NCBI RefSeq assembly: GCF_006475605.1
Contig: NZ_SSBC01000022.1
Span: 1-58,244 of the forward strand
DNA length: 58,244 nt
Direction: 5' to 3'
Source: Asticcacaulis tiandongensis
Lineage (GTDB): Bacteria > Pseudomonadota > Alphaproteobacteria > Caulobacterales > Caulobacteraceae
In this document: piece by piece, positions 8,281 through 11,774 of the stretch
How the letters are laid out: each line of letters begins with the position of its first letter
Position numbering within the stretch: position 1 is the stretch's first letter
Notes under the pieces: generated by a model
The model's input: only the letters and a program-made list of their open reading frames with translations
What the model was told of the DNA's origin: nothing
The model's database searches: none
Made by a program: the position numbers and the translations under genes

Positions 8281-10575
8281 ATGCCGAACGACATTTCCTC
8301 TATCCCCGCAAGCCTGCAAGCCTCGCTTGCGCCGGATTACCTGACAGGTCTCAATCCTGAACAACGCGCCGCCATTGAAGCCACCCAAGGCCCCTTACTG
8401 GTGCTGGCGGGGGCGGGGACGGGCAAGACACGCGTCCTGACCACCCGTATTGCCCATATTCTGGCGCAGGGTCTGGCGCGGCCCTGGGAAATACTATGCG
8501 TTACCTTCACCAATAAGGCGGCGCGCGAAATGCGTGAGCGGGCCACCCGTTTAATCGGGCCATCGGCTGAAGGCCTGCGCAATCTCGGCACGTTTCACTC
8601 GATTGCCGCGCAGATTTTGCGCCGCCATGCCGAGCTGGTCGGTTTGAAATCCAGCTTCAACATCATTGACGATGATGATCAGACGCGCCTCCTGAAACAG
8701 ATCATGGACGCCCGGCGTATCGACCTTAAGCGTTTTCCGCCCAAGACCATGGCGCATTTTATCGACCAATGGAAAAACAAGGGTCTGACGCCGGATAAGG
8801 TACTGAAACTGACGGCGGATGAGGGAACGCAATTTGCCTACAACAAGGGGCCGGAAATCTATGCCGAATATCAGGAGCGCCTGCGGGTGCTTAACGCCTG
8901 TGATTTTGGCGACCTGTTGCTGCATACGCTGAAAATTCTTAGTGAAAATAACGACCTTCTCGCGGATTATCACCGCCGCTTCAAATATGTGCTGGTCGAT
9001 GAGTATCAGGACACCAATGTCGCGCAATATCTGTGGCTCAGGCTTCTGACCAATGCCGATCGTAACCTGTGCTGCGTCGGCGACGATGACCAGTCGATCT
9101 ATGGCTGGCGTGGCGCTGAGGTTGATAATATCCTGAAATTCGAACGCGACTATCCGGGGGCCAAGGTCATCCGGCTTGAGCGCAACTATCGCTCGACGCA
9201 GCATATTTTGTCGGCGGCTTCGGGTCTGATCAAGGCCAATTCGGCGCGTCTGGGCAAGTCCCTATGGACCGAAGATACCGGCGGCGAAAAGGTGCAGGTG
9301 CGCGGCTTATGGGATGGTGCGGCAGAGGCGCAGCACATTGCCGAAGACATCGAACGCCTGAAAAAGCAGGGGCGCAACTATTCGGACTTTGCCGTTCTGG
9401 TGCGCGCCTCATTCCAGATGCGGGCGTTTGAAGAACGCTTCCTGATGCTGCAAATTCCCTATGTGGTGGTTGGCGGGCCGCGCTTTTTTGAGCGGGCGGA
9501 AATCAGGGATGCGCTGGCCTATCTCAGGCTCATTCAGTCGCCGGACGATGATCTGGCGTTTGAACGCATTATCAATGTCCCCAAGCGCGGTATTGGCGAC
9601 GCCACGGTGCAGAAACTGCTGATGCAGGCACGTCTGGGTGGCCAGAGCGTTATGGCGGCGGTGCGGGATCTGATTGAAACGGATGAATTGCCAACGCGGT
9701 CGAAAACCCCGCTTCAGGCCTTTATTCGTGATTATGATCGCTGGAAGACCTATGCGCCTCAGGTGACGCAGGACGAACTGCTTGAGCGTGTCCTGACCGA
9801 GACCGGCTATTTTGACATGCACCGTGCCGATAAGGTGTCGGGCCAGACGCGCCTTGATAACCTCAAGGAAATGCAGACGGCGATGCAGGATTTTGAAAAT
9901 CTTGAGGCCTATCTGGAGCATGTGTCTCTGGTCATGGAGCTTGAGCGGGCAGGGGGTGAGCACAGTGTGCGCATATCGACCCTGCATGCCGCCAAGGGGC
10001 TTGAGTTTCCGGTTGTTTTTCTGCCCGGCTGGGAGGAGGGCGTGTTCCCGTCTCAGCGCTCGCTTGATGAAACTGGCGTGCGCGGTCTGGAGGAGGAGCG
10101 GCGTCTCGCCTATGTCGGTCTGACGCGCGCGCGCGAACGGGCGACCGTCAGTTTTGTTGCCAATCGTCAGGTCTTTGGCCGCTGGACCAACCAGATACCG
10201 TCACGCTTTGTCGATGAAATGCCGATTGAGCATGTCGATGCCCAGTCGGCAACCGGCTATGCACAATCCGGCTGGCAGTCGCAGGAATCGCGCTGGGATC
10301 GGGCAGGCTATCAACCAAATCACGCCAAAAAGAGCGCAGGCTTTGGCGGCGAATTGTCCGGTGTCGATATGAGCCGCCTTGAGCGCAAACCGACCGCCCA
10401 CCGGGCCACCGCCGCCAAACCTCAAGCCGCCAAGGGACTGACCGTGGGGACACGCGTGTTCCACATCAAGTTCGGCTATGGCGAAGTGGTGTCCACCGAA
10501 GGCAATAAGCTGATCGTCAATTTCCAGACCTCAGGCGAAAAGAAGGTCATGGACAGCTTTGTCGAGAAGGCGTGA
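8281..10575 (+). CDS. pcrA: ATP-dependent DNA helicase, UvrD/PcrA family
   Basis: This 764-residue superfamily 1A helicase unwinds DNA 3' to 5' in nucleotide excision repair, mismatch repair and clearance of recombination intermediates or stalled RNA polymerase. Visible motifs are the Q-motif region LNPEQRAAI, Walker A GAGTGKT (44-50), motif Ia TFTNKAAREM, motif II DEYQDT (about 240-245), motif III GDDDQSIYGWRGA (about 267), motif IV LERNYRST, motif V TLHAAKGLEFPVVFLPG and motif VI EERRLAYVGLTRAR. The C-terminus carries the tudor-like RNA-polymerase-binding domain (VGTRVFHIKFGYGEVV). It may head a transcription unit with the three small genes that follow. Confidence 0.95.
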   Translation: MPNDISSIPASLQASLAPDYLTGLNPEQRAAIEATQGPLLVLAGAGTGKTRVLTTRIAHILAQGLARPWEILCVTFTNKAAREMRERATRLIGPSAEGLRNLGTFHSIAAQILRRHAELVGLKSSFNIIDDDDQTRLLKQIMDARRIDLKRFPPKTMAHFIDQWKNKGLTPDKVLKLTADEGTQFAYNKGPEIYAEYQERLRVLNACDFGDLLLHTLKILSENNDLLADYHRRFKYVLVDEYQDTNVAQYLWLRLLTNADRNLCCVGDDDQSIYGWRGAEVDNILKFERDYPGAKVIRLERNYRSTQHILSAASGLIKANSARLGKSLWTEDTGGEKVQVRGLWDGAAEAQHIAEDIERLKKQGRNYSDFAVLVRASFQMRAFEERFLMLQIPYVVVGGPRFFERAEIRDALAYLRLIQSPDDDLAFERIINVPKRGIGDATVQKLLMQARLGGQSVMAAVRDLIETDELPTRSKTPLQAFIRDYDRWKTYAPQVTQDELLERVLTETGYFDMHRADKVSGQTRLDNLKEMQTAMQDFENLEAYLEHVSLVMELERAGGEHSVRISTLHAAKGLEFPVVFLPGWEEGVFPSQRSLDETGVRGLEEERRLAYVGLTRARERATVSFVANRQVFGRWTNQIPSRFVDEMPIEHVDAQSATGYAQSGWQSQESRWDRAGYQPNHAKKSAGFGGELSGVDMSRLERKPTAHRATAAKPQAAKGLTVGTRVFHIKFGYGEVVSTEGNKLIVNFQTSGEKKVMDSFVEKA

Positions 10576-10623: not shown

Positions 10624-10812
10624 ATGGCCGATACACAACACATTGCCGCATCGAAGGCGGTTCGCAAGAAACCCAGTCCTTATCTTGGGGTTACCCGGGA
10701 AGGGATCAAGATCGTGCGACCTTCGGGACGGGTTGATAATGTGACCCTTGCCCAGGCCCGCGAAGCGGTAGCGACCCTACTGGCGGAAAAGGCCCCGAGG
10801 CGCGCAGACTAG
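10624..10812 (+). CDS. Small conserved-looking hypothetical protein
   Basis: This 62-residue protein (MADTQHIAASKAVRKKPSPY...) has a basic N-terminus and then YLGVTREGIKIVRPSGRVDN followed by a helix (LAQAREAVATLLAEK). I do not recognise a family. It lies 48 bases after the helicase gene and 9 bases before the TIR/DRHyd-like gene, so it is probably in the same operon. The spacing suggests a functional tie to the downstream pair, but none is proven. Confidence 0.65.
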   Translation: MADTQHIAASKAVRKKPSPYLGVTREGIKIVRPSGRVDNVTLAQAREAVATLLAEKAPRRAD

Positions 10813-10821
10813 GCCCTCCTG

Positions 10822-11424
10822 ATGCAAAAGACGGATGTTTTCATAAATTGTCCGTTTTCTGCGGATTATGACGAGCGTTTTCGGGCCATTGTGTTTGCCG
10901 TATTACGTACCGGTTTCGATCCGCGGTGCGCGCGCGAAGCCGATGATGCCGGCGAAAACCGCTATGAGAAAATCTGCCGAATCATAGAGGCCTGTCAGTA
11001 TGGTATCCACGACATCTCTAAAACGGAACCGGATGTGACCTCGGGTTTGCCGCGTTTCAATATGCCGTTTGAGCTGGGCCTGTTTCTGGGGGCGAACAAG
11101 TTCGGCGGCGCAGAGCAAAAGAAGAAGGCGACCCTTGTGCTGGATGTGCAGCCTTACCGCTATCAGCAATTTCTCTCGGATATTGCCGGACAGGACATTC
11201 GGGCCTATGAGGGCAATGTGGCTTCGCTTATCGAGCAGGTGGTAAACTGGCTGCGTCAGTTTTCGTCTGACCGGTTGCCGGGCGGTCGGGCTGTGGCCGA
11301 AGAATTTACCGTCTTTCGTACTAATCTACCCGAACTGTGCCGCATAAGCCGCCTGGAGCCGGAGGAAGTGACCTTCCTTGATTTCAGGCGTTTCGCCGTG
11401 GAATGGATTGCGCATACAGCATGA
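10822..11424 (+). CDS. TIR/nucleoside deoxyribosyltransferase-like protein
   Basis: The 200-residue protein starts with a hydrophobic strand and motif DVFINCPFSADYDERF, then GIHDISKTEPD (about 61-71) and RFNMPFELGLFLGANKFGG (78-96). This layout (an N-terminal strand, a DIS motif, then N-M-P-F-E-L-G) resembles the DRHyd superfamily, which links nucleoside deoxyribosyltransferases and TIR-like NAD-consuming domains. Glu84 is in the position where those families place a catalytic glutamate. Similar 'VFINCPF' proteins are scattered through bacteria as uncharacterised genes. The stop codon overlaps the start of a RusA-like nuclease (ATGA). A role in nucleotide or NAD+ cleavage, perhaps as a defence effector, is inferred from the fold pattern only; a non-enzymatic nucleotide sensor is possible too. 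Confidence 0.6.
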   Translation: MQKTDVFINCPFSADYDERFRAIVFAVLRTGFDPRCAREADDAGENRYEKICRIIEACQYGIHDISKTEPDVTSGLPRFNMPFELGLFLGANKFGGAEQKKKATLVLDVQPYRYQQFLSDIAGQDIRAYEGNVASLIEQVVNWLRQFSSDRLPGGRAVAEEFTVFRTNLPELCRISRLEPEEVTFLDFRRFAVEWIAHTA

Positions 11425-11774
11425 CGTGGATTAATTCGGGTAAGGTCAAGGCGCGGGAAACCGAGACGGGACTTGAGATCGTGATTGACGGTCTGACGAC
11501 GCAGGGGCGTTATTATAAACCGCTGGTCTATGAATTTTTCCGCAAGGAATGGCGGGGTTCAAGACCGGCGTGGGGTGACTATGCGGTGGAAATCCGCATG
11601 GAGCATATAGGCGATCCGCCGTGGATGGATCTCGACAATCTGGCCAAGGCTTTGCTGGATGCCATCAAGGGATTTGTCTTCCATGACGATTCACAGGTGG
11701 CGCGGTTACTGGTCGAGCGCTTTGAAGGCGAGCGCGAACAGATCCAGATTAAGGTCTATGCCCTGAAGCGGTGA
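11421..11774 (+). CDS. RusA-family Holliday junction resolvase-like endonuclease
   Basis: The 117-residue protein matches the RusA fold, a dimeric Mg2+-dependent nuclease that cuts Holliday junctions and is usually phage-derived. The motif MDLDNLAKALLDAIKGFVFHDD includes Asp70, Asp72, Lys76 and Asp89/Asp90, which line up with the catalytic Asp70, Asp72, Lys76 and Asp91 of E. coli RusA. The start is the ATG at 11421, inside the stop of the TIR/DRHyd-like gene, so the pair is translationally coupled. A longer frame from 11403 exists but has no support. No other phage genes are near. It ends one base before the convergent hydrolase gene. Confidence 0.82.
   Translation: MTWINSGKVKARETETGLEIVIDGLTTQGRYYKPLVYEFFRKEWRGSRPAWGDYAVEIRMEHIGDPPWMDLDNLAKALLDAIKGFVFHDDSQVARLLVERFEGEREQIQIKVYALKR

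Follow-up and report, generated by a model that had tools for sequence, protein, structure and literature searches.

The A62-DRH gene pair

The stretch analysed here, 58,244 nucleotides of Asticcacaulis tiandongensis (contig NZ_SSBC01000022.1) and called the window below, carries on its plus strand a gene for a small protein of 62 residues, A62 (10624..10812), and, after 9 nt between stop codon and start, a gene for a 200-residue protein, DRH (10822..11424), with a predicted TIR/DRHyd fold and a predicted N-glycosidase function. An earlier note, made from the letters of this DNA, had coupled DRH to the RusA-like gene that follows it, as a possible undescribed defence or repair module. The 62-residue, 200-residue and RusA open reading frames (ORFs) of that note were all found on the plus strand, and the comparisons given below indicate that the real, conserved partner of DRH is A62, not RusA.

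The AlphaFold2 model of DRH (predicted local distance difference test, pLDDT, 89.2) was matched by Foldseek and VIA to the TIR domain of SPARTA, to DNPH1, to AbTir and to MilB, the SPARTA TIR being the nearest fold by Foldseek; a family absent from this list of matches is not thereby excluded. The TIR/DRHyd resemblance claimed in the earlier note is borne out by the predicted structure and these matches, and the motifs from which it had been read, VFINCPF (residues 6-12), HDIS (63-66) and RFNMPFELG (78-86), are all present and nearly invariant among homologues. In the model, VFINCPF (10837..10857) forms strand 1 (E5-9) and the next loop, HDIS (11008..11019) the end of strand 3 (E60-64) and the loop after it, and NMPFELG (11059..11079) the first part of the helix that follows strand 3 (H80-94). 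Twelve residues (N9, P11, R35, R47, I65, S66, N80, M81, P82, E84, L85 and G86) are identical in 120/120 database homologues, and H63 and D64 in 119 of them. E84 is the likely catalytic glutamate, judging from its conservation and its placement on the helix; E84 and D64 are both conserved, and N-glycosidic cleavage itself is a prediction.

By sequence, DRH approaches Pfam PF10137 (CAP12-PCTIR_TIR; 19.6 bits, E 0.00096), under the gathering cut-off of 24.7, while its PADLOC match (E 0.058) and its matches in PDB sequence searches were at chance level. The family is large: at E 0.001, 7,947 of the 7,999 database candidates that were scored are matches, and the relatives shown are named "hypothetical" or "uncharacterized" protein in their sources. 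As modelled, DRH is thus a TIR/DRHyd-fold member of a large family that has no name. The open-licence literature yielded no article with "VFINCPF" as its subject, and none that joins nucleoside 2-deoxyribosyltransferase, toxin-antitoxin and Phd; when we call the A62-DRH pair uncatalogued, we mean that it was not found in that literature.

A small partner gene across phyla

In the DRH loci viewed first, a small ORF ends at most a few bases from where DRH begins. Of 104 non-redundant loci, 81 have an ORF 45-140 aa long ending at the DRH start, compared with 165/763 control genes from the same loci; candidate ORFs suited to a motif search were available for 94 of those 104 loci and for 369 of the control genes. 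A 20-column motif trained on half of the loci scored at least 5 in 26/47 and 31/47 held-out DRH loci, in 1/369 and 0/369 of the control sets, and in 1/47 of the shuffled sets each time; because the halves were drawn at random, related loci are present in both training and test halves.

A further model, for which the upstream ORFs of all but the Poribacteria group served as training set, gave the consensus ApKpGSFTraEIRKAVkkVL. At a score of at least 6, this motif is found on one flank or the other of DRH in 85/108 loci (78 upstream, 8 downstream, one of them on both sides), as opposed to none upstream and one downstream of 661 control genes; at a laxer threshold of 4 the controls rise to three upstream and three downstream. 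The 108 loci were chosen by a pattern containing the CP and NMP.E residues of DRH, and loci lacking the pattern or having identical first 60 residues were dropped. Most of the 78 upstream loci are training data, and the Poribacteria are the independent part: held out of training, they carry the motif 3' of DRH in 7/9 loci, with the gene order flipped. The stop codon lies within 15 nt of the DRH start in 67 of the 78 upstream partners, so that the small gene adjoins DRH in an operon-like unit, as in type II toxin-antitoxin systems. On the other side of DRH, a same-strand gene of at least 100 aa begins within 30 nt in only 8/75 loci, and the module therefore consists of two genes. No natural partner-DRH fusion was seen by eye in the loci inspected.

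The AlphaFold model of A62, of low confidence, has two short strands, and its helix spans residues 42-56 (10747..10791), a segment that belongs to the motif shared by the partners. A62 matches no Pfam, NCBIfam, PADLOC or PHROG family above chance. Partners are rich in Lys and Arg, with a net charge of +5 or more in 98/107, a count that has no control and for which the choice of partners favours a basic motif. The "62-residue unknown" of the earlier note is present as described, but its role had been missed, the motif tests indicating that it is a conserved DRH partner.

Among the 23 loci without the motif, we read 13 as having a DUF2188-type partner (seven by pattern, six by eye), and of the 107 partner ORFs chosen, 22 match Pfam DUF2188 with an E value no higher than 0.01. 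Some partners (those of L086, L129 and L139, for example) resemble, by eye, a DUF2188 domain followed by the same helix. Two of the ten remaining loci (L021, L143) appear, again by eye, to share a third type of partner. Small DUF2188 genes are found in 16/143 genomes of the class, and the genome of the window has one that lies away from DRH (G000:C10:1184099-1184281). Elsewhere such a gene lies directly 5' of a classical TIR protein (L177; TIR_2, E 6.8e-19), 5' of similar proteins of about 390 aa adjoining XRE and ImmA-like genes (L172, L174), 5' of a weak Mrr_N match (L175) and 5' of a weak multi-ubiquitin match (L170). Judged by title, no article found in the open-licence literature deals with a partner role of this kind for DUF2188.

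A profile of A62-type partners (A3, 15 rows), built in part from the DRH loci that it then finds, matches in 10/119 genomes of the family, nine of them at DRH loci. The tenth, in genome G110, is a protein in which a tail like A62 comes after a Phd/YefM antitoxin domain (PF02604, E 5.5e-11). Searching the database with this tail brought up two proteins that have PF02604, one of them identical to the G110 sequence, and in all the fusion is known from two protein clusters (L163:1273-1647; P0121, P0122); it was not found in the viral contigs searched. The C-terminal part of Phd/YefM antitoxins binds the toxin, and the antitoxin reading of the small partner is favoured for this reason.

Decayed copies were also seen. 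In one genome (G100) a frame change breaks up DRH, with the frame of the small gene intact. On Sinorhizobium fredii plasmid pSF25509a (L153), a DRH relative, unannotated as one gene, is interrupted by an insertion, and the DUF2188 gene 5' of it is intact and annotated; similar matches are found in three other Sinorhizobium plasmids. A third broken DRH (L016) has lost its first part, and no partner was seen beside it.

RusA, the UvrD-RusA interval and the distribution of DRH

RusA (11421..11774, plus strand) matches Pfam PF05866 with 46.2 bits (E 8.6e-12, cut-off 22.8), and its residues D70, D72, K76 and D90 align with D70, D72, K76 and D91 of E. coli RusA, which we take to be catalytic, in an alignment to 1q8r that is itself weak (E 0.079). 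The RusA-like identity and the D, D, K, D pattern of the earlier note are thus present. The DRH stop codon TGA occupies 11422-11424, so a RusA start at 11421, where its frame has an ATG, would produce the ATGA overlap. This is the probable start, and the residue numbers above are counted from it; another in-frame ATG lies at 11403 (ORF 11403-11774, 123 aa, plus strand). Upstream of A62 is a UvrD/PcrA-type helicase (8281..10575, plus strand), a flanking core gene recognized by profile matches and in the genus loci and already named as a helicase of this type in the earlier note, and RusA is followed by a gene for a beta-lactamase-fold serine hydrolase (PF00144; 11776..13944, minus strand), which lies 3' of RusA in 25 genus loci. 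No phage genes were found among the eight neighbouring proteins scanned, in agreement with the earlier note. GC contents (57.5% in uvrD, 59.8% in A62, 53.7% in DRH, 54.2% in rusA, 56.1% in the window) show no striking contrast with the surroundings, and we set aside a foreign base composition of the pair.

Synteny separates RusA from DRH. We viewed the 25 RusA loci of the genus with 1.5 kb on each side. RusA is present in 25/25 genus genomes, 85-92% identical to that of the window, and in 65/80 genomes of the family (58/68 of the better ones); in this clade it belongs to the chromosomal core and is not, as had been suggested, a resolvase out of its usual context, even though the genome of the window also has RuvC. 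DRH is near RusA in only nine of the 25 genomes, and the other 16 have RusA with no DRH nearby. Six of the nine have the order isomerase-partner-DRH-RusA, two have partner-DRH-isomerase-RusA, and the window alone has UvrD-A62-DRH-RusA, so that RusA directly follows DRH in 7/25 genomes. At the 16 loci without DRH, RusA comes after the isomerase (12), after UvrD (3), or after about 1.3 kb of sequence whose long ORF is, by eye, P450-like (1; L043). Since the interval is so variable (isomerase, A62-DRH, both, neither or the P450-like ORF), we rejected a UvrD-led operon. DRH copies at this same locus are only 52-59% identical to that of the window. Farther afield, RusA is near DRH at 3/89 loci (80 on genome contigs and 9 on viral contigs, some clipped at their ends), all three in Asticcacaulis. 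The pairing thus recurs only within Asticcacaulis, close to the outcome that had been named beforehand as refuting it, and the genus, family and 89-locus comparisons lead us to reject RusA as the partner of DRH. Frame overlap with a neighbour is, in this instance, no evidence of partnership.

The distribution of DRH is patchy. It is found in 20/119 genomes of the family and 9/387 of the class, the latter possibly an undercount with at most eight candidates scored per genome. In the genome collection, DRH was confirmed in at least 542 of 589 pattern-matched stretches; the genome-contig loci that we studied are the best 80 of these and therefore lean towards the query, and even so they include Planctomycetota, Acidobacteriota, Poribacteria, Verrucomicrobiota and other phyla. 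Seventeen plasmid records carry DRH, eight of them typed as conjugative. No record of the phage collection matched, and nine loci were found in IMG/VR; a phage origin was considered and not adopted. A TM0106-family RecB-like nuclease comes after the pair on a Rhizobium plasmid (L149:7605-12153), and on a Sphingomonas plasmid (L152:7317-8989) a restriction endonuclease begins 3 nt after DRH.

In a 111-row tree, with the bootstrap not fully settled, the DRH copies at the Asticcacaulis locus fall into two clades, supported at 100/95 and 100/97, and the latter lies within a 99/97 group with copies from Phenylobacterium, Brevundimonas, Methylocystis and Aestuariivirga. The group table for this tree gives a single change for the Asticcacaulis copies, which is due solely to its leaving rows outside any group uncounted. 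In a 37-row tree with all rows counted, the approximately unbiased (AU) test rejected a single Asticcacaulis clade (p 0.007; 0.038 once a copy from an Asticcacaulis metagenome-assembled genome, P0010, was added). Judging from the two clades and this rejection, DRH probably entered the UvrD-RusA slot on two or more occasions, the alternative being the sorting of old duplicates by loss.

Proposed function and relation to known systems

We considered whether DRH belongs to defence islands. PADLOC was run on 122 of the 144 listed neighbours (73/73 downstream, 49/71 upstream), the 22 upstream neighbours left out being mostly short ORFs, possibly the partner itself. The 122 yielded 55 families, compared with 39 from 85 genes more than 5 kb away in the same loci, a crude control. 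Neither defence-island membership nor the enrichment that the earlier note had looked towards is seen, and a defence role is therefore no more than a possibility. Matches among the 122 include Thoeris, Lamassu and viperin models, and AbiJ_NTD4 and NACHT-associated domains were found by Pfam in two members each. In the window, neither a cyclase nor a ThsA gene was found among eight neighbouring proteins by Pfam, three flanking ORFs having also been scanned with PADLOC. One viral contig (IMGVR_UViG_2684623061_000002; L023/L142) has a retron-type reverse transcriptase (RT) just 5' of the partner-DRH pair (PADLOC RT_VI, E 1.4e-75), and a second small ORF there, 3' of DRH, has repeated KSAAGSAL segments. 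With this RT as query, only 1/89 DRH loci has an RT nearby, and all Rfam matches at the locus are under gathering scores; on these grounds DRH was rejected as a retron effector. One report (PMC12548924) describes a toxin-antitoxin-like pair within a retron operon, so an RT near DRH need not mark a retron effector.

We see about an even chance that A62-DRH is a widespread, uncatalogued, horizontally moving toxin-antitoxin-like two-gene module. DRH would be a TIR/DRHyd-fold enzyme that cleaves N-glycosidic bonds, either in NAD or in a nucleotide, and A62, made from the same operon, would keep it inactive, the likeliest means being that the conserved C-terminal helix of A62 docks on DRH. The variable N-terminal part of A62 may serve to sense a trigger or to bind nucleic acid; loss or titration of the partner would free DRH, and growth would stop. 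More broadly, and tentatively, we suggest a multi-phylum toxin-antitoxin or abortive-infection family without a name, in which a DRHyd/TIR-fold N-glycosidase is controlled through the exchangeable C-terminal helix of a tiny basic protein, the helix being grafted on hairpin-type, DUF2188 or Phd/YefM N-termini and the gene order being flippable. Several points weigh against a toxin-antitoxin-like module. The Foldseek matches of DRH are moderate (template-modelling score about 0.5-0.58 on the query), the A62 model is weak (mean pLDDT 72, predicted template-modelling score 0.29), and no recognised DNA-binding domain was found in A62 by Pfam above chance. Ten of the 108 DRH loci have no clear partner by the criteria used, the Phd fusion of G110 stands without DRH on the 4.8 kb read, and DUF2188 genes also precede genes other than DRH and are therefore not specific to a DRH toxin.

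The main rival, possible but in our view doubtful, is a sensor-effector defence pair, in which the small protein would recognise an invader (phage DNA or protein, for example) and switch DRH on, much as the TIR domains of SPARTA or Thoeris are switched on by partner modules. The nearest fold, the RT beside one DRH relative, the DUF2188 gene 5' of the TIR protein in L177, the neighbours matching defence models and, for what the uncontrolled count is worth, the basic partners are all in its favour. Set against these are the equal yield of PADLOC families beside DRH and more than 5 kb off, the fusion of the partner-like tail to an antitoxin domain in two clusters, and broken DRH copies accompanied by an intact partner. 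It is unlikely that DRH is instead a DNPH1-like N-hydrolase of nucleotide salvage or housecleaning, with the small protein as its chaperone or regulator and no role in conflict, given its presence in a minority of family genomes and on plasmids and its two apparent acquisitions at one locus. The joint module of DRH and RusA has the ATGA overlap and the seven genomes with adjacent genes to recommend it, but it is largely refuted by the synteny described above (RusA without DRH, an isomerase gene in its place after DRH, its near absence from other DRH loci and its much higher identity within the genus), and we regard it as highly improbable. Should the toxin-antitoxin-like module be correct, a very common family of hypothetical proteins would gain a function and DUF2188 a lead, the toxin-antitoxin world would gain a regulated TIR-fold enzyme, and the 20-residue helix would be a testable switch.

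DRH has its fold in common with TIR/DRHyd effectors (SPARTA TIR-APAZ, AbTir, the CAP12/Pycsar TIR PF10137), and one article (PMC9503650) places conserved residues of such effectors where strand 3 ends and in the helix that follows, as with HDIS and NMPxELG in DRH. Unlike them, DRH is a stand-alone protein of 200 aa with two extra C-terminal helices, and the scan of its neighbours showed neither an Argonaute gene, as in SPARTA, nor a cyclase gene, as in CAP12/Pycsar. DNPH1, the nucleoside 2'-deoxyribosyltransferases and MilB differ from DRH in that it travels with a small partner gene, and DRH has no sequence match in the PDB above chance. With retron effectors (NDT-like, RT-TIR) the likeness is confined to the one relative just 3' of an RT, whereas the window has no RT ORF and L023/L142 no convincing Rfam RNA match. 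The toxins known from Phd/YefM type II systems are RelE- or Doc-type proteins, whereas DRH would be a putative toxin with a TIR fold that A62 is presumed to neutralise. As in those systems, A62 and DRH are two adjacent small genes with the partner usually first, and a tail like that of the partner occurs fused to a Phd/YefM domain.
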